Shown here: one piece after another, positions 1,001 through 15,798 of the stretch
Layout of the letters: each line of letters opens with the position of its first letter
How positions within the stretch are numbered: the stretch's first letter is position 1
From: a virus
DNA length: 27,114 nt
Virus record (IMG/VR): IMGVR_UViG_3300009285_003260
Coordinates: 1-27,114 of that record
Reading direction: 5' to 3' (one strand)
Program-made: the position numbers and the translations under genes
The notes under the pieces: generated by a model
What the model was told of the DNA's origin: nothing
Seen by the model: the letters and a program-made list of their open reading frames with translations, nothing else
Databases searched by the model: none

Positions 1001-1563
1001 GCGGATATCCAGAAACTACAGATTTAATTGGGAGACGATTTGGTAGACTCGTTGTTAAGAAGTTTATGGGAACAAAAAATGGTAGAGGTTTTTGGTCAGT
1101 TGTTTGTGATTGTGGTACAGAGAAAACCGTATCAAGATCGACCTTAATAAGTGGTCATACCTTAAGTTGTGGTTGTTTCATGCTAGAAAGGGCTAAAGAA
1201 TGTAATTCTTTACCAAATGGGGTTGCCCATATAAATGGTTTATTTAAAACATATGCTGATTCTGCAAAAAATAGGTGTTTAAGTTTTGAATTAACAAAAG
1301 AAGAGTTTGTTTCCTTAATAAGCAAAAGTTGCTTTTATTGCAATGAACCTCCCAGCGAACGATGGCACGAAGCCAGAGGAAATGGCCATATGTTATCTAA
1401 TGGTTTAGATAGAATAGATTCTTCTAAGGGATATACTACGAATAATGTAGTTCCTTGTTGCAAAAAATGTAATTATGCCAAAAAGCAAATGTCTGTAGAA
1501 GAATTTAAATCTTGGATTACAGCTGTGTATGTTAATTTTGTTATGGCGGAGGGCCTAAAATGA
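997..1563 (+). CDS. free-standing HNH homing endonuclease
   Basis: A 188-residue protein. Residues about 9-62 form a zinc-bearing DNA-binding region typical of phage HNH enzymes: IGRRFGRLVV, then CDCG and SCGC with four cysteines. The nuclease domain runs from about residue 112: CFYC (C112, C115), GLDRID (136-141), then N149/N150, CCKKCNYAK (154-162) and SVEEFKSWI. It probably nicks or cuts a related phage lacking the insertion and spreads by repair. It starts in an ATGA overlap with the gene before it and ends in an ATGA overlap with gmd. Its last residues MAEGLK copy the end of the upstream gene, so the HNH gene apparently uses the old stop codon of the invaded gene. No group I ribozyme elements are visible around it, so it is not intron-borne. 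Confidence 0.9.
   Translation: MSGYPETTDLIGRRFGRLVVKKFMGTKNGRGFWSVVCDCGTEKTVSRSTLISGHTLSCGCFMLERAKECNSLPNGVAHINGLFKTYADSAKNRCLSFELTKEEFVSLISKSCFYCNEPPSERWHEARGNGHMLSNGLDRIDSSKGYTTNNVVPCCKKCNYAKKQMSVEEFKSWITAVYVNFVMAEGLK
1543..1563 (+). repeat. gene-end repeat, downstream copy (MAEGLK-stop)
   Basis: This is the second copy of the MAEGLK-stop segment, now read as the last residues of the HNH gene, with its final bases overlapping the gmd start codon. It is most simply the original 3' end of the gene at 311, left behind after the HNH element went in just upstream. The direction of the event is inferred; the similarity itself is directly visible. Confidence 0.75.
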
Positions 1564-2525
1564 AAACTGCTGTGATAACAGGAATTACAGGTCAAGATTC
1601 TTCCTATATGGCGGAGTTACTTTTAGGCAAAAACTATAAAGTAATTGGGGTGGTTCGCAGATCTAGTACAATAAATACTATTAATATTAATAGTATTTTA
1701 AATGATATAGAACTTGTATACGGAGATCTATCCGATTCAAGTTCTATTTCTGGTATTATAGAAAAGTATAAACCAGATGAATTTTATAATCTTGGTGCTA
1801 TGAGTTTCGTACCCACATCTTGGAAGGCCCCAGAATATACTGCCGATATTGATGGCATTGGCCCACTTCGCTGCTTGGAAGCCATCAAAAGGATTAAACC
1901 AGACACTAGGTTCTATCAAGCAACTAGTTCAGAGTGTTTTGGTAAGGTTCAAGAAACCCCCCAAACGGAAAAAACCCCTTTTTATCCAAAAAGTCCCTAT
2001 AGCGTCTCAAAACTTTTTGGACATTGGATTACTGTAAATTATAGAGAATCTTATGACTTGTTTGGTGTATCTGGAATTTTATTTAATCATACATCCCCAA
2101 GACGAAGTATAGAATTTGTAACTAGAAAGATTTCCAACGGGGTTGCTAGAATTAAGTGGGGTTTAGATAAAGACATTCATTTAGGAAATATAGATTCTAA
2201 ACGAGATATTGGTTTTGCTAAGGAATATGTTAATGCCATTTGGTTAATGTTACAGAAGGATAAACCAGACACCTACTGTATTGGTTCAGAAGAAACACAC
2301 CCAATTAGAGAAATTTGTGATATAGCATTTAGTTATGTGGGATTAAATTATACTGATTATGTGGTTATTGATCCTAAGTTTTATAGGCCCACAGAAACGG
2401 ACACTCTGTTATCTGATTGTACCAAGGCCCATAAAATCTTGGGTTGGTATCCAGAAACAACTTTTAAACAGTTGGTTGAAATGATGGTAGAAAACGATCT
2501 TAAGTTAGTGAAGGACGAACTATGA
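1560..2525 (+). CDS. gmd: GDP-mannose 4,6-dehydratase
   Basis: A 321-residue extended short-chain dehydrogenase that converts GDP-mannose to GDP-4-keto-6-deoxymannose, the entry point to GDP-fucose, rhamnose, perosamine and related sugars. The Rossmann motif is TGITGQD (residues 7-13). The active site shows TSSECFG (122-128) and the YxxxK pair Y147/K151 (PYSVSK). Family-specific stretches are NHTSPRR (176-182), FVTRKI (186-191), RPTETD (276-281) and KAHKILGW. The usual GQDGSYL reads GQDSSYM here, a small variation. It is slightly shorter than bacterial Gmd (about 345-370). The start overlaps the HNH stop by four bases. No reductase, aminotransferase or other GDP-sugar finishing enzyme is seen nearby except the C-methyltransferase that follows. 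Confidence 0.95.
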   Translation: MKTAVITGITGQDSSYMAELLLGKNYKVIGVVRRSSTINTININSILNDIELVYGDLSDSSSISGIIEKYKPDEFYNLGAMSFVPTSWKAPEYTADIDGIGPLRCLEAIKRIKPDTRFYQATSSECFGKVQETPQTEKTPFYPKSPYSVSKLFGHWITVNYRESYDLFGVSGILFNHTSPRRSIEFVTRKISNGVARIKWGLDKDIHLGNIDSKRDIGFAKEYVNAIWLMLQKDKPDTYCIGSEETHPIREICDIAFSYVGLNYTDYVVIDPKFYRPTETDTLLSDCTKAHKILGWYPETTFKQLVEMMVENDLKLVKDEL

Positions 2526-3739
2526 CAACATGTAGAATTTGTAATGGGAATTTAAAAACGGTTATGGATTTAGGAACTTTTTATCTTTCTGATTTTCTTT
2601 CAGATGGAGAAGATGCTGTACAGGATACTCTTGCACTGGCAGAATGTGAATCTTGTGGATTAGTTCAGTTACGAGATACCCCAGATTTAGATTTTATGTA
2701 CAAAGATCATTACTGGTATCGTTCTGGACTTAATAATTCAATGCTAAAAGATTTAAAAGATATTATAGAAAATATTGAAAGAAGAATTGAATTAGAAGAT
2801 GGAGATACTGTTGTAGATCTTGGTGCAAATGATGGATCTATGCTAGGAATGTACTCCAATAAGAATATTACTAGGGTTGGGTTTGATCCTGCACCTAATC
2901 TACAAAGTAGAGCAGAAAAAAATTGTAGTTATTTTGTAAATGATTTTTTCTCCGCTGATTTATATCCTATGGGAGTTAAAAGAGCAAAAGTAGTTACAAC
3001 CATTGCTATGTTTTATGACATTTCAAATATTAATAAGTTTGTAGAAGACGTAAAATTTATTCTTGATAAAGATGGAATATGGGTAATTCAATTAATGGAT
3101 TTATATTCCATGCTAAAAGTAAATGGGGTAGATGACATTAATTCAGAACACTTAGAATACTATAAACTTAGTGATTTATATAAACTAATGTCAAAACACA
3201 GTCTTCATCTTTTTGATGCAGAATATAATAAAGTAAATGGTGGTTCTTTAAGAGTATATATTTCATATCCAGGAAATTTTGAAGAAACAAAAAGACTAAA
3301 AGATGCTATAAAAGATGAGTATTTTGCTTTTGAAACAGGAGCAGTTTCTATAGAAAAACTAAAAGAAAATACTGCCGAATTTAAAAAGAAAATTCAAGCT
3401 TTTCTAATTCAATATGATTTAAATGATGTCTATGCTTTGGCTGCTTCAACGAAAGCCAATACCGCCCTTCAAGTATTTGGGTTAGATAATACTTGGATTA
3501 AAGCTATTGGTGAAGTAAACGAAGATAAGTTTGGAAAACGAACCTCAGGGACTAATATTCCAATTATTCCCGAAAAAGAAGTTTTTGAGGCAAACCCCAA
3601 AGTAATTATAGTATTAGCATGGCATTTTACTGAAACCTTTGATAGAATTCTAAAACCTTTCTTGGAAAGTGGCGGCTTGGCATTATACATGTTACCCACT
3701 CCCCACGTCAAAACAAAAAATGGTGGGTTTAATCTATGA
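2522..3739 (+). CDS. NDP-sugar C-methyltransferase (zinc-binding, TylC3/NovU type)
   Basis: A 405-residue three-domain protein. The N-terminal zinc domain has CRIC (C4, C7) and CESC (C42, C45), followed by YWYRSG (64-69), a family signature. The SAM-binding domain has VVDLGANDGS (97-106). Active-site and C-terminal signatures are EHLEYY (209-214) and VNGGSLRVYI (238-247). Characterised relatives add a methyl group to carbon 3 of 4-keto-6-deoxy NDP-sugars, making branched sugars. Its four-base overlap with gmd strongly suggests that it acts on GDP-4-keto-6-deoxymannose or a product of it. The residue before EHLEYY is Ser where relatives often have His. The exact methylated carbon cannot be told from sequence. 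Confidence 0.88.
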   Translation: MTTCRICNGNLKTVMDLGTFYLSDFLSDGEDAVQDTLALAECESCGLVQLRDTPDLDFMYKDHYWYRSGLNNSMLKDLKDIIENIERRIELEDGDTVVDLGANDGSMLGMYSNKNITRVGFDPAPNLQSRAEKNCSYFVNDFFSADLYPMGVKRAKVVTTIAMFYDISNINKFVEDVKFILDKDGIWVIQLMDLYSMLKVNGVDDINSEHLEYYKLSDLYKLMSKHSLHLFDAEYNKVNGGSLRVYISYPGNFEETKRLKDAIKDEYFAFETGAVSIEKLKENTAEFKKKIQAFLIQYDLNDVYALAASTKANTALQVFGLDNTWIKAIGEVNEDKFGKRTSGTNIPIIPEKEVFEANPKVIIVLAWHFTETFDRILKPFLESGGLALYMLPTPHVKTKNGGFNL

Positions 3740-3984
3740 GTATAAAGGACAAAACCGTTGCTACTCTAATAGATGAGTTAATTACTTGCAGTCACCGATG
3801 TTGGGATTCCCAAAATAATCTTATGAATATGTCCCTATCAGAAAAGGATAGACTAACTGCTGCTATTACGGCACAACAAACTAATGCTAGACGTACAGAA
3901 TTAATTAAAGCAATAGATGAATTACTGGGTTTTGGACAATTTACTAATGTAACTAAAACATATTATAAAGAAGATAAAAAATAA
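3736..3984 (+). CDS. small helical protein in the glycan cassette, unknown function
   Basis: An 82-residue, apparently all-helical protein. Visible signatures are TVATLIDELITC near the start and NARRTELIKAIDELLG near the end, giving a two-helix repeat look. The pattern vaguely resembles small phage proteins and the DUF4254-like helical family found near sugar genes, but this is only an impression. It overlaps the C-methyltransferase by four bases and is followed with no gap by the first glycosyltransferase, so it is made with the glycan enzymes. It could be an accessory subunit or a regulator of them. Confidence 0.6.
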   Translation: MSIKDKTVATLIDELITCSHRCWDSQNNLMNMSLSEKDRLTAAITAQQTNARRTELIKAIDELLGFGQFTNVTKTYYKEDKK

Positions 3985-4932
3985 ATGATACGAGGTCTTT
4001 TTATAAATCCATCCAAAACAAATTGTAGCATTTATGAATCGGGAGCAATGATAAGCAGAATTCTTACAGATTCTAGAGCATATGATTTGGATATTATTAA
4101 TATATCAAGGGAAGACATACTTAATGAAAATTATGGCATTCCAAACGGATACGACTTTTATTTAATTAACTGGCATAGTTGGGCATTACCAATAAAGGAA
4201 GATCGTATAAAAAAACTAGTGGGGAAAAAATTGTGTATAGTATTAGAAGTTAGTGCTGAGGAGATGTTTCCAAAACTATATACACAACCAACTTGGTTTG
4301 ATGCCTGTATGGTAATAGATCCAACAAAGCAAAGAGAAAAAAATGGCTATCCATTTCCCAGACCGATATTATTTGTAGAAAATTTAAGACCATTATTAAG
4401 TGATAAGATTCCTGTACTAGGAAGTTTTGGACTATTAACGGCTGGAAAGCGTTTTGAGGAGATTATTACAAACGCTAATAAGATAGATAATTGCATAGTA
4501 AGAATTAATGTTCCTCCAGCTTTTTGGGCATGGGATTCCCCAGGATGTAAACGTCTAGTAGATTTTGCAAATGGACTAAGAAGGTTAGCTAAAGGAACAA
4601 TAGACCTAAGAATAACCGATAATTATATGACACAGGAAGAATTAATACGGTGGTGTTCAGAAAACACAATAAATATCTTCCCTTATTACAGAAAGCAGCC
4701 TGGGCTATCTGCCGTAACAGACCAAGCAATTTCGTCTGGAAGGGGAATAGCAGTAACAAATTGTGATACTTTTAGGCATATACATAAATATATATCATAT
4801 TATCCAAAACAATCCTATTTACAATTAGCCGAATCTTCTTTGGCAGGAGTAAAGAAGATGCAAGAGGACTGGAGCACAGGAAATTTTTTGTTGGCTTTTG
4901 AAAATATGTTGCGAGAAGAGAAGGTATTATGA
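3985..4932 (+). CDS. GT-B-like glycosyltransferase, paralogue 1 of 4
   Basis: A 315-residue protein and the most divergent of four related glycosyltransferases. The N-terminal signature CGVxQxGxR of its sisters is degraded here to NCSIYESGAM (13-22). The C-terminal half keeps GSFG (146-149), the start of the nucleotide-sugar-binding half of a GT-B fold, and PGLSAVTDQAISSGRGIAVTN (239-259, sister pattern GLS..D.alsvkRPIAvtn). Such enzymes transfer a sugar from a nucleotide donor to an acceptor. No classical EX7E motif is obvious. The start follows the previous stop directly and the end overlaps the next gene by four bases. The acceptor, donor and linkage are unknown. Confidence 0.7.
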   Translation: MIRGLFINPSKTNCSIYESGAMISRILTDSRAYDLDIINISREDILNENYGIPNGYDFYLINWHSWALPIKEDRIKKLVGKKLCIVLEVSAEEMFPKLYTQPTWFDACMVIDPTKQREKNGYPFPRPILFVENLRPLLSDKIPVLGSFGLLTAGKRFEEIITNANKIDNCIVRINVPPAFWAWDSPGCKRLVDFANGLRRLAKGTIDLRITDNYMTQEELIRWCSENTINIFPYYRKQPGLSAVTDQAISSGRGIAVTNCDTFRHIHKYISYYPKQSYLQLAESSLAGVKKMQEDWSTGNFLLAFENMLREEKVL

Positions 4933-5852
4933 GAGTACTAATTATTAATCATACTCATGTAGAGTGCGGAGTATTTCAGTTTGGAAAAAGAGTTTATGAT
5001 TTAGCATCGAGATCGACCAATGTAGATTACTATTACAAAATTATAGGCTCTCATGATGAATATGTAAATGTGGTAAATAAGATAAAACCAGATGTAATAA
5101 TTTATAATTACCATTGGGATAGAATGCCTTGGCTAACCGAAAAAGACATCAAATCATACAAAGAAATAAAACACCTATTCTGCTTTCATGATGGATCTTT
5201 AATAGGGTCTTATGATAAGTATCTATTTTTTGGTTCCTATGACTCGGAAGAAAATTCCGTTCCAAAGGAAAAAAGAATATTGCTACCAAGACCATTGTTT
5301 GAATATGCTGGTTTGCATCCTAAAAATGATACTATAACTTTCGGAAGTTTTGGTTTTTGTTCTACCTATAAAGGATTTCCCCAACTTGTAAAGCTAATTA
5401 ATGAATCTTTTAATCATGCGGTAATAAATCTGCACATAACAATTCCTTGGTTTGGTGAAATTCCCGGATACAAATTATATCCAATAGTAGATGCATGTAG
5501 GAAAAATAATACCAAGAAGGATATAAAACTAAATATAACAAGTAATTTTTTGGACGATAACGGTTTGCTAACCTTCTTAGCCGGAAACGACATAAACATC
5601 TTAAATTACGAGGAAACAAAGAACAGCGGTCTTTCCAGTGCACCTGATTATCTTTTATCAGTAAAGAGGCCCATAGCTGTTCGTAATGTTTCTTTGCTAA
5701 GACACGTCATAAATGATGACAACTCATTGGAAAAAAACACATTATCAGAAATTCTTCAAAAAGGAATTACCCCACTAGAACCATATTATAACAAATGGTC
5801 TATAGAAAAATATATTTCAGATTTAGATAAAGCAATGATGGAACTAATATGA
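4929..5852 (+). CDS. GT-B-like glycosyltransferase, paralogue 2 of 4
   Basis: A 307-residue protein. It has CGVFQFGKR (13-21) in the N-terminal domain, YNYHWDRMPWLT (about 59-70), GSFGF (139-143) at the start of the second domain, NFLDDNGLLTFLAGNDIN (206-223) and GLSSAPDYLLSVKRPIAVRN (234-253). The last two stretches align closely with paralogue 3, so these two look like the most recent duplication in the array. It overlaps its neighbours on both sides by four bases (ATGA). By analogy with GT-B enzymes it is a cytoplasmic sugar transferase. The four sister genes may each add one residue of a single oligosaccharide; this is inferred. Confidence 0.75.
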   Translation: MRVLIINHTHVECGVFQFGKRVYDLASRSTNVDYYYKIIGSHDEYVNVVNKIKPDVIIYNYHWDRMPWLTEKDIKSYKEIKHLFCFHDGSLIGSYDKYLFFGSYDSEENSVPKEKRILLPRPLFEYAGLHPKNDTITFGSFGFCSTYKGFPQLVKLINESFNHAVINLHITIPWFGEIPGYKLYPIVDACRKNNTKKDIKLNITSNFLDDNGLLTFLAGNDINILNYEETKNSGLSSAPDYLLSVKRPIAVRNVSLLRHVINDDNSLEKNTLSEILQKGITPLEPYYNKWSIEKYISDLDKAMMELI

Positions 5853-6766
5853 AAACAGTTTTAATATTGAATCATAAAAAACAAGCCTGTGGGGTTTATC
5901 AATCGGGGAAAAGAATTTACGAACTTCTAGAAGACTCAACAAAAATAAATTTTATCTACAGAGAGGTAGAATCTTATCAAGAGTTTGTATCCAGAATGAA
6001 AATTATTTCCCCAGATGCTGTTTTATATAATTGGCATCAAGGAACTATGAATTGGTTAACAAAAAAAATGGTTGAAAATACGGGGGCCAAAAGCTATTTT
6101 TATTTTCATACTACAGTATTAGATCCTAAAATTGGAGCATACTTATTTTTTGGTGATTATGCTTTAGATAGGAACATCTTACCCCTCAATAGGCAGATTC
6201 TAGTTCCAAGACCCATACTAAAATATAGGGGAACTTATCCAAAAAACAATATCCTGACCATTGGAAGTTTTGGTCTGGCCTTTTTCCAAAAAGGTTTCCA
6301 TACCCTTACAAAACTAGTGAATGCTACTTTTGAGCGGGCGGTATTAAATCTTCATATGCCGCAGTCTTATTTTTCTGATCCGACAGGTACTGAAACAAAA
6401 CGTGTTGCAGATGAATGTAGAAGATTAAATACAAACAGAGGAATACAATTAAATATCACGCAAAACTTTAAAAATGATGCTGAACTTCTAACCTTTTTAG
6501 CTGGAAATGATATAAATGTGTTCATGCACACTGAAAATGGAGAGGGTTTATCCGGCATTGGGGACTATGCCCTAGCCGTAAAAAGACCAATTGCCATAAC
6601 AAACTGCACTATGTTTAGACATTTTATGAAGGATGAAATACGTTTAGATAAACACCCTATTCCAGAAATTCTTTCTTTTGGAACAAAACCGTTAGACGAG
6701 TTTTATGAAAAATGGTCAGAAAATAATTTTAAAGCTGAAATGGAAGGTGTATTTAATGAAGAATAG
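5849..6766 (+). CDS. GT-B-like glycosyltransferase, paralogue 3 of 4
   Basis: A 305-residue protein. Signatures are CGVYQSGKR (14-22), YNWHQGTMNWLT (60-71), GSFGL (139-143), NFKNDAELLTFLAGNDIN (206-223) and GLSGIGDYALAVKRPIAITN. It lines up with paralogue 2 over its full length at clearly similar spacing. The 3' end overlaps the following methyltransferase by 11 bases, counted from that gene's likely ATG at 6756. The donor and acceptor cannot be predicted. Confidence 0.75.
   Translation: MKTVLILNHKKQACGVYQSGKRIYELLEDSTKINFIYREVESYQEFVSRMKIISPDAVLYNWHQGTMNWLTKKMVENTGAKSYFYFHTTVLDPKIGAYLFFGDYALDRNILPLNRQILVPRPILKYRGTYPKNNILTIGSFGLAFFQKGFHTLTKLVNATFERAVLNLHMPQSYFSDPTGTETKRVADECRRLNTNRGIQLNITQNFKNDAELLTFLAGNDINVFMHTENGEGLSGIGDYALAVKRPIAITNCTMFRHFMKDEIRLDKHPIPEILSFGTKPLDEFYEKWSENNFKAEMEGVFNEE
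6742..6749 (+). promoter_or_regulatory. ribosome binding site deciding the methyltransferase start
   Basis: GGAAGGTG sits six bases before the ATG at 6756, inside the end of the preceding glycosyltransferase. A longer open frame begins at ATG 6705, but that start would overlap the upstream gene by 62 bases and adds a lysine-rich N terminus unlike the family. I therefore prefer 6756. Confidence 0.7.
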
Positions 6767-7475
6767 AATTTTGTTGCCTGTAAATAAAGGAGAATTTTCT
6801 TCCATAATTGACGATATGTATAAAACATTGCCTGATATGATGAAAAGAAAAATTCCCGAATCGGAAATACAAGCTGCTTTTGCAATCGATTATATAACAA
6901 ATAGATACCACAGTGGGGAGTTATTGTGCGTAGGCTCTTATGAGGATGTTACATATGAATATTTAAAGGCAAAAGGAGTTTCCGTAGTGGGGATTGATCC
7001 ACAAATAAACGTGGATCTACATACATATAGAAAATCAACGGATAAAAAATTCGACATGGTTTTTTCCGTTTCTGTAATAGAACATGTAGAAAACGATGAA
7101 GAATTTATAGAAGACATTAGTAATCTTTTGTGTAAGAATGGTACTGGAATATTGACAACCGATTTCTTAGAGAATTGGTTTCCATCAGAGCAACAAGCAT
7201 TAAAAATTCCGAATCTGAGTAAATCAACGACAAAGGAAAGACTATATTGGGTAAAAAAATTGAACGAATCTAAAAAGGAAAGAAAACCCTTTTCGCCAAA
7301 GCCCAAAGAAGATTATAGACTATACACCTCTAAAGACTACAAACGACTTTCCAATGTTCTTGAAAAAAACGGCTGTTTTTTTGTTGATGAGTTTATAGCA
7401 AATGTAGAGCCCTATTTTACTTATGATTTATGTAAATATAGTTTCTCCACAATGGTATTTAGAAAAATTTCATGA
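6756..7475 (+). CDS. class I SAM-dependent methyltransferase
   Basis: A 239-residue protein. SAM-binding motif I reads ELLCVGSYED (55-64), with the acidic residue at the end of the second strand in VVGIDPQ (D81). Motif II/III region is FDMVFSVSVIEHVEND (99-114). The IEHV and following acidic residues are typical of small-molecule and sugar O-methyltransferases rather than DNA methyltransferases; no DPPY or NPPF motif is seen. It sits between glycosyltransferase paralogues 3 and 4, so it probably methylates a sugar of the same glycan, perhaps capping it. It ends in a four-base overlap with paralogue 4. Confidence 0.78.
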   Translation: MKNRILLPVNKGEFSSIIDDMYKTLPDMMKRKIPESEIQAAFAIDYITNRYHSGELLCVGSYEDVTYEYLKAKGVSVVGIDPQINVDLHTYRKSTDKKFDMVFSVSVIEHVENDEEFIEDISNLLCKNGTGILTTDFLENWFPSEQQALKIPNLSKSTTKERLYWVKKLNESKKERKPFSPKPKEDYRLYTSKDYKRLSNVLEKNGCFFVDEFIANVEPYFTYDLCKYSFSTMVFRKIS

Positions 7476-8425
7476 AAAAAATCCTAATTTTGAATAATAA
7501 AGAAAAGCCCTGTGGAATTCAACAGTATGGTGAAAGAATAATAAACTCGCTAAAAAATTCAAAACAATTTTTTTATTTCTATAGAGAAATAGAAACGGAA
7601 GAACAGGCAATAAATGAGATTCTTTATATAAATCCAAGTATAGTTTTATATAATTATAGTCCTGGTACAATGCCCTTTATAACAAAAGTTTTGCCAAATA
7701 AATTTAAAGATGTAAAACATACGGCACTAATCCATGAAGGATATTCATACCTCAATAATTTTATAGAATTTACAAACATCATTTACTTACAGGATGCTGT
7801 GGAAATTGCACCAGAGTTTCAAAGTAGTGTGTTTAGCACTTCTGTTCGTTATCTACTTTCATATACAGGAGAATATCAAGAAAATATAGTGCCAAAAATA
7901 GGAAGTTTTGGTTTTGGATTTCCAAGAAAAAATTTTGATTTTATTGTGGAAAAAGTTAACAATGAGTTTGATGTTGCCAACATAGAGTTTTATATATCAA
8001 ACTCTTTTCATAGTGATCCAAACGGGGATTTAGCAAACAAAACTATAGAAGACTGCTACAAAAAAATTACTAAGCCAGATATTAAATTATTTATAAATAG
8101 AAATTTTGTATCAGACGACGAGCTTTTAACTTTCTTATCCAGTAATGACATAAATTGTTTCTTTTATGGTGCAGAAAAAACTGACGGAATTGCAGGTTCT
8201 ACCGATCTAGCATTATCTGTAAAAAGACCAATTGCTGTAACGAAAGTTCCAATGTTTTCACACCTTCATTCTTTAGTACCAGAAATTTGTATTGAAAATT
8301 CATCTATCAAAGAAATAATTAAAAGGGGGATTGGGCCACTACAACCCATTTATAATGCTTTTTCTGAAGATAATTTTATTAAGGTTTTTGATGATATTTG
8401 TGAAAGAATTTTGAACAATGCATGA
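7472..8425 (+). CDS. GT-B-like glycosyltransferase, paralogue 4 of 4
   Basis: A 317-residue protein. It keeps CGIQQYGER (14-22), YNYSPGTMPFIT, GSFGFGFPRKNF, NFVSDDELLTFLSSNDIN and GIAGSTDLALSVKRPIAVTK, in the same order and spacing as paralogues 1-3. Sequence drift between sisters is high while motifs stay fixed, suggesting old duplications with different acceptor or donor choice. It is separated from paralogue 3 by the inserted methyltransferase gene. It overlaps the next gene by eight bases. Confidence 0.75.
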   Translation: MKKILILNNKEKPCGIQQYGERIINSLKNSKQFFYFYREIETEEQAINEILYINPSIVLYNYSPGTMPFITKVLPNKFKDVKHTALIHEGYSYLNNFIEFTNIIYLQDAVEIAPEFQSSVFSTSVRYLLSYTGEYQENIVPKIGSFGFGFPRKNFDFIVEKVNNEFDVANIEFYISNSFHSDPNGDLANKTIEDCYKKITKPDIKLFINRNFVSDDELLTFLSSNDINCFFYGAEKTDGIAGSTDLALSVKRPIAVTKVPMFSHLHSLVPEICIENSSIKEIIKRGIGPLQPIYNAFSEDNFIKVFDDICERILNNA

Positions 8426-14163: not shown

Positions 14164-14988
14164 ATGGAAATCAATCAGTTTTCTGACGTGCTTGGTGTTG
14201 TTCCTACTGAAGACATTGTAGAAGGACGTTTTGTTCTACTTTGTGAACATAGTTTTTCTTATGACTTTGGTAGCCGAGAAGATGTTGTGGGAGTAAAACT
14301 TCCAGATACTACAGACGAGGGAACTCGTTGTAAATTCTGCCTAACTTGGGCAGTTAGCAATAGTTCCACTCCTATGTATATACCTCAGCCGGTTTTGGCT
14401 CAGGGTGCTCGCAGGGGCGGTTGGAGTGAAGCAGCTAATACACCTATTACTGGTGCTACTGTCTATCTTACCTATCCTGGTTATACCGAAGGACAGACTA
14501 TTCCCTCTGGTACGCCTTCATTAGTTTACACCGACGGAACATTTACTATTCCTTTGGGTGGATATATTGCCGATGCAAGTATTATTGTCCCTACCGGTGG
14601 TGTAAAAGCTGTTATCGGTACTCGTGCTGCCCTAACCCCGATTACTACCTTTGGTGCTTCTTGGTCTGATGGTTCAAATGCCATTGAAGTTCCTGATAAT
14701 GTTCGGGAAATTATGCAGACCGGCTGGCTTGGACGTTATTATGGTGCACCTCTGCTTGCTGTAGAACAGGTCTATGATAATCTCGATGATTACAATACCA
14801 TGATTCCTACTGATAAGATTGTTGTTATCGGACAAAATGTTGGCGAGTTTATTACTTATGGCGATGTTAAGTATAAAGAATGGACTGACATGAGGCCCAC
14901 ACCTCCTTATTGGAATCTAGAAATTTTTCAACAGTTCGGTCTTTGTATCACCTCTGCCGAAGGGATTTATGTACTAAAAATTACCTAG
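14164..14988 (+). CDS. major capsid protein (HK97-like), unspliced reading; exon 1 is 14164-14940
   Basis: A 274-residue protein, small for a major capsid protein, in the canonical place after protease/scaffold. The C-terminal third, with GRYYGAPLLAVEQVYD, IPTDKIVVIG, GEFITYGDVKYKEW and the last strand region, looks like the P- and A-domain region of HK97-fold shells. A good ribosome site (TTGGAGA, near 14146) precedes ATG 14164. A group I intron appears to begin after base 14940 (Gly259). If unspliced, translation runs into the intron and ends in LCITSAEGIYVLKIT at 14988. If spliced to 15751, it ends in MIVDRAEGIFVLKVT. Both forms have exactly 274 residues. Base composition here is less AT-rich and richer in GCT/GGT codons than the neighbours, as expected for a highly made protein. 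Confidence 0.85.
   Translation: MEINQFSDVLGVVPTEDIVEGRFVLLCEHSFSYDFGSREDVVGVKLPDTTDEGTRCKFCLTWAVSNSSTPMYIPQPVLAQGARRGGWSEAANTPITGATVYLTYPGYTEGQTIPSGTPSLVYTDGTFTIPLGGYIADASIIVPTGGVKAVIGTRAALTPITTFGASWSDGSNAIEVPDNVREIMQTGWLGRYYGAPLLAVEQVYDNLDDYNTMIPTDKIVVIGQNVGEFITYGDVKYKEWTDMRPTPPYWNLEIFQQFGLCITSAEGIYVLKIT
14941..14988 (+). repeat. spare capsid C-terminus encoded by the intron 5' end
   Basis: These 48 bases continue the capsid frame into the intron and end at TAG 14986-14988. The last 11 codons (AEGIYVLKIT-stop) match the last 11 codons of exon 2 (AEGIFVLKVT-stop, 15766-15798) at 25 of 33 bases, mostly with synonymous or conservative differences. Within this segment the bases GCCGAA serve both as codons Ala-Glu and as the internal guide sequence of P1. 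Confidence 0.85.
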
Positions 14989-15040
14989 CTTTCGTGCAAA
15001 TGCCCAAATTGTGATATACTTATTTCAAATAAGATACTAC

Positions 15041-15047
15041 AAGGATG
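15041..15047 (+). promoter_or_regulatory. ribosome binding site of the intron HNH gene
   Basis: AAGGATG sits five bases before ATG 15053. Just upstream, CTTAT/ATAAG (15019-15033) forms a small hairpin inside the intron. In some phage introns such hairpins restrain endonuclease translation; here that is only a possibility. Confidence 0.55.
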
Positions 15048-15052
15048 TGCAG

Positions 15053-15664
15053 ATGGAAACATGTGTTAGGTGTAAAAAAGAATTTAGACTGATAGGCACA
15101 AGTAACTCTTTTAAAGAAGATGGTTTGTGTGGAAAGTGTAGAGGCAGACAGAAATATCTAGATAATGTAGACAAATATAGAAAAACAAATGTTTGTCCAA
15201 CATGTGGAAAGAAAATTTTAAAGTCGTCTAAATATTGCAATACCTGCTCACAAATTGGAAATAAAAACCATCAATGGAAAGAAGAAAAGGAAGATAGGCG
15301 GTTTTATTCTACAATAGGATATAGAAATTGGAGAAAAGAAATATTAAAACAATTTCATAATAAATGTGTTATGTGCAATAGTACTTATAGATTGGCAGCA
15401 CACCACATATATCCAAAAAGAAGATTTCCAGATAAAAGATTTGACCTAGATAACGGAGTGGCTTTGTGCCACAAACACCACAGTCAAGTTCATTTTAAAG
15501 AATTAGAGTATATAAATTTTTTCAATGGAATCATGGCCGAAATTAAACTCTGTGAACTCGGTGAAGGCTGTAATGCTAATACCGAACCAAGCCACAAAAT
15601 TGTGGAAGGTGTAACGACTAGGGATGAAATAAACTTCCCCACGAGCGCAGGGCAACCTCACTAA
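15053..15664 (+). CDS. intron-encoded HNH homing endonuclease
   Basis: A 203-residue protein. The N terminus has two Cys-rich modules: CVRC (C4, C7) with CGKC (C26, C29), and CPTC (C48, C51) with CNTC (C62, C65). An IGYRNWRKEILKQFHNKCVMC region leads into the HNH domain: AAHHIYPKRRF (115-125), LDNGVALCHKHHSQVH (132-147), with two further Cys (C105, C108). It would cut intronless capsid genes and promote intron homing. I chose ATG 15053 because AAGGATG lies five bases upstream; a GTG at 15011 would extend the frame through an intron hairpin. The last roughly 40 residues (from about IMAEIKLCELG) are translated ribozyme core and probably have no protein function of their own. Confidence 0.9.
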   Translation: METCVRCKKEFRLIGTSNSFKEDGLCGKCRGRQKYLDNVDKYRKTNVCPTCGKKILKSSKYCNTCSQIGNKNHQWKEEKEDRRFYSTIGYRNWRKEILKQFHNKCVMCNSTYRLAAHHIYPKRRFPDKRFDLDNGVALCHKHHSQVHFKELEYINFFNGIMAEIKLCELGEGCNANTEPSHKIVEGVTTRDEINFPTSAGQPH

Positions 15665-15738
15665 AAATAGTGAAAGAAGATATAGTCTGACCTTATAGGA
15701 AAGAAAACTATAAGAAGTAAAAGATAAAGAACTTTTAC
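15541..15738 (+). ncRNA. group I ribozyme catalytic core (P4/P5 to P9.1)
   Basis: This is the compact core of the intron: the P5 pairing CGGT (15559-15562) with ACCG (15581-15584), the Q-like ACCGAACCAAG, the R element AACGACTAG (15613-15621), the P8 hairpin, the S element and two P9-type hairpins, in the canonical order. It would bind guanosine in P7 and catalyse exon joining. The first part overlaps the 3' end of the HNH reading frame, so the same bases serve as protein code and ribozyme. The order and spacing suggest a subgroup IA or IB type; the subgroup was not resolved. Confidence 0.85.
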
Positions 15739-15750
15739 GATAACAACGTG

Positions 15751-15798
15751 ATGATTGTAGATCGTGCGGAAGGAATTTTTGTTTTGAAAGTTACTTAG
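15751..15798 (+). CDS. major capsid protein exon 2
   Basis: This is the downstream exon joined to 14940 after splicing, giving 15 residues MIVDRAEGIFVLKVT and a TAG stop. It has no independent ribosome site and its frame is open only as a continuation of exon 1. The spliced protein has the same total length (274) as the unspliced one. Identity to the intron-encoded ending is 8 of 15 residues. The exon start is inferred from frame, the terminal G rule and equal length; one codon either way is possible. Confidence 0.75.
   Translation: MIVDRAEGIFVLKVT

Follow-up and report, generated by a model that had tools for sequence, protein, structure and literature searches.

A predicted mobile group I intron carrying a spare capsid C-terminus in a phage contig

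The closest known counterparts of the locus described here are elements of fungal mitochondria that insert a C-terminus into their host gene. These mobile open reading frames (mORFs), which bring a foreign C-terminus with them, have been described in Allomyces atp6 and in Glomus atp6, atp9, cox2, and nad3 (PMC3630166). Among phages, the capsid gene of mycobacteriophage LittleE is likewise interrupted by a spliced intron, of group I or probably so, that holds an endonuclease gene (PMC3706429), and lactococcal Tuc2009, as cited in that paper, has a capsid-gene intron of this kind; unlike the present case, the capsid introns of PMC3706429 have no reported spare ending, and their very efficient splicing is presumed. 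Free-standing mob/seg endonucleases of the T4 type and introns of the td type also lie near or within essential phage genes, and the passages of PMC2988022 considered here describe no copy of the host gene's ending for them. In the literature searched, mostly papers accessible without subscription, we found no report of a phage intron that duplicates the ending of its host gene.

We analysed a viral stretch of 27,114 nucleotides (IMG/VR record IMGVR_UViG_3300009285_003260, hereafter the window), in which an initial annotation had proposed that a group I intron in the major capsid gene carries an alternative ending of the capsid protein. Features of the locus are listed in Table 1.

The capsid gene and its two endings

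The capsid identity of the interrupted gene was borne out by the HK97 fold of a full-length relative. The fold was modelled on the protein of the related contig L029; the window's own copy is truncated. The L029 model, built with 53 relatives (pLDDT 67.7, with low confidence mainly at residues 56-87 and 190-212), matched HK97-type structures in Foldseek with E down to 6e-8, and its alignment to HK97 Head II (VIA-align Z 15.6, 200 residues, rmsd 3.5) extends through the C-terminus. A capsid model made from four close sequences only reached a pLDDT of 31.

The capsid protein of 274 residues that the initial annotation had derived from both spliced and unspliced messages is not real, since the ORF in the window is a fusion of two genes. 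By tblastn, ORF residues 1-147 are the start of a separate gene of ~188 aa in L001, L004, and L006, which in relatives directly precedes the capsid gene; residues 144-274 correspond to the final 43% of that next gene, the ~300-aa capsid gene. The missing ~694 bases include the N-terminal 57% of the true capsid protein of ~300 residues. L005, which shares 98.5% identity with the window across 5.4 kb, carries both genes, its contig ending within the capsid gene; the 694 bases between the two parts are absent from the window, with a one-base overlap. Elsewhere in the window there is no second capsid N-terminus. In the ~60 bases 3' of the junction (window 14591-14650) there are 10 differences from L005, all without amino-acid change, and beyond them 194 bases are identical to L005, a pattern that looks like strain mixing. 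The fusion at 14591/14592 is probably a defective genome or a misassembly. Because of it, the protein length and start given previously are wrong, and because the capsid gene is truncated upstream, neither message yields a working protein in this contig. At L005 5058-5063, a five-base tandem duplication (GAAGG) puts the gene preceding the capsid gene in another frame than in the window.

Table 1. Features of the capsid locus in the window
Feature	Position	Strand	Evidence
5' portion of an independent gene of unknown function (~188 aa), fused here to the capsid gene	14164..14591	+	tblastn to L001, L004, L005, L006 (own gene there)
Fusion junction; 694 bases of near-identical L005 absent	14591..14592	.	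comparison with L005
Exon 1, what remains of the true major capsid gene (C-terminal part, about residues 170-285 of ~300)	14592..14940	+	relatives; HK97 fold of the capsid family
TTCGGT, 5' exon strand of P1, splice site at U	14935..14940	+	pairing with 15536-15541
Group I intron, 810 nt, last base G	14941..15750	+	Rfam match; three-intron comparison
Spare capsid C-terminus LCITSAEGIYVLKIT and stop, in P1 loop	14941..14988	+	homology; profile score; protein-level constraint
Predicted HNH homing-endonuclease gene, 203 aa, in P1 loop; 3' end overlaps ribozyme core	15053..15664	+	PHROG, Pfam HNH; L023, L080
AATCAT, P10 strand, partner of the first six bases of exon 2	15529..15534	+	pairing
GCCGAA, internal guide sequence (P1 3' strand)	15536..15541	+	same place before P3 in L023, L080
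Ribozyme core	15548..15738	+	54 pairs, paired in 100% of cells; compensatory change in 20
Core helices P3, P4	P3 15548-15554/15646-15652; P4 15558-15563/15580-15585	+	
Core helices P7, P7.1, P8	P7 15616-15620/15683-15687; P7.1 and P8 also in core	+	
Core helices P9, P9.1	P9 15692-15698/15708-15714; P9.1 15717-15723/15732-15738	+	
Exon 2, native capsid C-terminus MIVDRAEGIFVLKVT and stop	15751..15798	+	matches endings of intronless relatives

The description of the two endings held up. The ORF at 14164-14988 ends in LCITSAEGIYVLKIT, which is encoded in frame directly after Gly, exon 2 codes for MIVDRAEGIFVLKVT, and the intron site leaves the last 15 codons of the capsid gene on its 3' side. Recounting the final 11 codons of both tails gave the same 25 matches in 33 bases; five of the seven codon differences are silent, the other two being Tyr/Phe and Ile/Val. 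Homology rather than chance, as had been claimed, is confirmed by the score of the spare against a profile of natural capsid tails (32 bits; among 53,187 other frame positions of the window, the highest score is 5.6). Intronless relatives ending like exon 2 were found, as predicted, and no intronless relative was found whose capsid gene has an ending like 14941-14988 followed by unrelated sequence, the result named beforehand as evidence against the proposal. An exact-DNA search of viral contigs with the spare tail and with exon 2 gave no match.

Recurrence and the ribozyme

Searches with capsid alignments recovered about 62 distinct capsid 3' ends, five of which have two tails (the window, L023 with the identical L024, L080, L029, and L115), while about 50 relatives have a single tail. 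The window, L023, and L080 share a homologous HNH intron with one ribozyme and the same splice site after QQFG, and their HNH proteins are 53-57% identical. L029 and L115 have an unrelated LAGLIDADG endonuclease and a ribozyme of another kind, and their splice site falls within a Met codon (GACAT|G), 31-33 codons short of the gene's end; in their introns, the spare is alone in the P1 loop, GTGTC soon after its stop pairs with GACAT, and spare and native tails are 88% identical. L122 is a sixth case with a tail and an HNH gene, its contig ending inside the latter. The predicted splice restores conserved capsid sequence in all five, and no intron without a spare was seen at the capsid 3' end, where the tail-less loci are cut by contig ends. 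The occurrence in five contigs and two intron families thus indicates a recurrent design and no accident of this contig. Against phage records, the capsid proteins of the window and L001 had no match and that of L023 matched distant Bacillus and Microcystis phages; a search of genome contigs returned one MAG contig, L038, which is intronless.

Comparison of the tails pointed to constraint on the spare as protein. With the five pairs pooled, spare and native tails differ with pS 0.92 and pN 0.16, and third positions hold 71 of the 112 differences (P 8e-11 versus uniform), counts that include changes on both the spare and the native branch. A neutral spare is expected to place roughly half of the differences regardless of codon position. 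All five spares keep the protein, are saturated with synonymous changes, and stop at the same place; given this saturation, no age can be estimated for the spare. Scored against a profile of 52 intronless tails, the native tail equals or exceeds the spare in every pair, and exon 2 is therefore not decaying. Of the five spares, that of the window diverges most (25.6 bits, versus an intronless range of 28.8-53.4) and may be poorer than its native tail. Spare and native codons are identical at 29 of 85 positions versus 37.5 expected (one-sided P 0.036), which is only suggestive of selection for DNA dissimilarity beyond random codon choice. Over the 15-32 codons available, spare DNA is no nearer to its own native tail than to the tails of other phages.

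The match to Rfam RF00028 scored 38.2 bits (E 5e-8), and at the Rfam gathering score of 50 the window has no match; far stronger evidence for group I comes from comparing three related introns. In the alignment of the HNH introns (n = 3), 54 of 54 core pairs are kept, P7 included, with 100% of cells paired, and 20 pairs show compensatory change versus 7.3 in shuffles and 0-2 when the partners were slid. Among the helices that the initial annotation had called directly visible, the core with P7, P8, and P9 is upheld by this covariation and P1 as read by eye is not. The earlier P1 probably used GCCGAA at 14956, inside the spare tail, which pairs in the window and has no full match at that place in L023 and L080. 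The end of exon 1, TTCGGT, pairs with GCCGAA at 15536 in the window and at 3897 and 4488 in L023 and L080, in all three directly before P3; the spare tail and the HNH gene thus fall in the P1 loop. As in group I introns generally, the 5' exon ends in U facing G of the guide, the intron ends in G, and a P10 with the 3' exon is possible. The start annotated at 14941 stands, and the intron ends at 15750. P10 lies immediately upstream of the guide, with 6, 10, and 6 Watson-Crick pairs in the window, L023, and L080 (chance probabilities 0.015, 0.001, and 0.018), and the L023 strand fits its own exon 2 best. We infer from these features that the introns splice, and splicing seems to be maintained alongside a spare maintained as protein.

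The endonuclease gene has an HNH domain (PF01844 and PF13391 just above their curated cut-offs; PHROG HNH families at E 1e-15), and the predicted enzyme would mediate homing of the intron. At L080 3912-4751, the HNH frame is open across the ribozyme and exon 2, and so ends in the native capsid tail. Other insertions were noted in related capsid genes. L037 (794-2463) has a capsid gene with two mid-gene group I introns, near residues 163 and 224; the ORF between them resembles a homing endonuclease, and TGA occurs where Trp is conserved. The end of a probable group I intron just before capsid residue ~93 (L033 1-70) marks a further insertion site.

A second element, at 978-1563 of the window, has no intron. 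Its free-standing HNH/endonuclease VII-like gene (997-1563) separates two other genes and has TTATGGCAGAGGGACTTAAATGA on one side and TTATGGCGGAGGGCCTAAAATGA on the other; both encode MAEGLK* and are synonymously different versions of the ending of the upstream gene. In L125 the site is empty and a single ending of the MAEGLK* type is present, and L126 has a related HNH gene with a doubled ending of this kind. No splicing is needed here because the upstream gene ends in the first copy. This second, intronless case means that the spare-ending principle may be general for homing genes in these phages, and the intron arrangement may be one version of it. Read by eye, window positions 1560-8425, upstream of the terminase gene, hold a run of genes resembling an epimerase of the sugar-nucleotide type, methyltransferases, and several similar, paralogous glycosyltransferases.

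A proposed explanation and its alternatives

We consider it likely that the locus is a mobile, splicing-competent group I intron with a spare capsid tail, from which spliced and unspliced RNA are both productive. An HNH-bearing mobile intron would have inserted near the 3' end of the phage major capsid gene, its P1 loop carrying the last 15 capsid codons, synonymously recoded, with a stop. Splicing would join exon 1 to the native tail in exon 2; on unspliced RNA, the ribosome would cross the 5' splice site, make the spare tail, and stop before the endonuclease gene, again giving a full-length capsid protein, which may then enter virions. As both messages would give a complete capsid protein, the insertion would do next to no damage to an essential gene that is expressed at a very high level, the presumed benefit of the arrangement. 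The recoding of the spare probably limits recombination with exon 2 and cutting by the intron's own enzyme, a protection that would follow from the different codons. That failure to splice is tolerated, the central claim of the initial annotation, gained support from the recurrence in five contigs and two intron families, the protein-level constraint on the spare, and the conserved ribozyme, P1, and P10.

The capsid gene is translated very heavily. In the td intron of T4, ribosome entry cuts splicing and unspliced RNA builds up, with a phenotype (PMC2988022). The spare may therefore matter in a heavily translated capsid gene.

Other readings of these data were weighed. Splicing might be dead or irrelevant, the homing element swapping the C-terminus so that the spare is the sole tail used and exon 2 a displaced relic; this we regard as unlikely. 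It has parallels in the displaced native tails of Glomus atp6 and cox2, which are unexpressed (PMC3630166), in the Tremella introns of similar kind, most of which no longer act as introns (PMC7315562), and in the free-standing HNH gene of the window, where a gene ending is duplicated without any intron. Dead splicing is, however, at odds with a core in which all 54 pairs are kept and 20 are compensatory although the endonucleases are only 53-57% identical, with a P10 that fits exon 2, and with exon 2 itself, intact in 5 of 5 and nearer to intronless tails than the spare is. If splicing were instead efficient, the spare could be a passenger, the gene end of a donor phage gained in homing and translated to no effect. 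The preservation of an in-frame spare and stop in 5 of 5 across two intron families, with few amino-acid changes and saturated silent ones, and the presence of a spare in every intron seen at this gene end make that quite improbable, although a foreign origin would fit spare DNA that is no nearer to its own native tail than to others'.

Still less credible is a deliberate alternative in which partial splicing sets the ratio of two capsid isoforms with different roles: both tails are intact, and those of the window and L080 differ at several positions, but the differences are inconsistent between loci, the two tails are 88% identical in L029 and L115, and the single-tailed relatives do with one. 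The suspect 694-base fusion about 350 bases upstream in the same contig could hint that gene ends of two strains were joined in assembly, but contigs from other samples have the same architecture, and their endonucleases and ribozymes are homologous and sit at one shared splice site; this artefact is largely refuted and has next to no probability.

Comparison with known systems

Mobile introns are usually viewed as tolerated because they splice well; in the two-message reading that we prefer, a recoded ending would insure against splicing failure. If true, this would be a second route to low cost, and would explain how homing elements come to sit in the most expressed phage gene. Because the upstream ORF looks complete, such introns escape annotation, and annotators should be aware of spare-tail introns hidden behind a seemingly complete ORF.

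In home-and-rescue drives, rescue copies are recoded. We lean towards the view that a natural home-and-rescue system has arisen repeatedly among the homing elements of phages, which would do so by carrying a recoded gene ending and inserting at the 3' end of essential genes at almost no cost, a reading that spans both the spares in P1 loops and the intronless spares beside free-standing endonucleases. The locus would thus be a natural counterpart of rescue gene drives: HomeR is likewise a homing element in an essential gene with its own rescue, but it is engineered, CRISPR-based, and used in an insect, and the likeness is one of analogy, not homology (PMC7968924).

Mitochondrial introns of Tremella likewise carry a fragment of the host gene, and their mobility has been proposed to exchange fragments; in contrast to the present case, the duplications are N-terminal, and cDNA showed that most have ceased to function as introns (PMC7315562). 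The fungal elements with inserted C-termini, to which our reading would link phage introns, come closer. As in them, core gene, in-frame inserted C-terminus, endonuclease gene, and displaced native C-terminus follow each other in that order, a match to the mORF type in layout that we treat as analogy only, and the pairs of C-termini have low DNA and high protein identity, as reported for the fungal pairs (PMC3630166). The fungal elements are mitochondrial, LAGLIDADG-type mobile ORFs, whereas here, in a phage, the spare sits in the P1 loop of a complete group I ribozyme; and whereas in the fungal cases the inserted tail is the expressed one and the mRNA was found to lack the native tail for atp6 and cox2, here the ribozyme could in principle restore the native tail.
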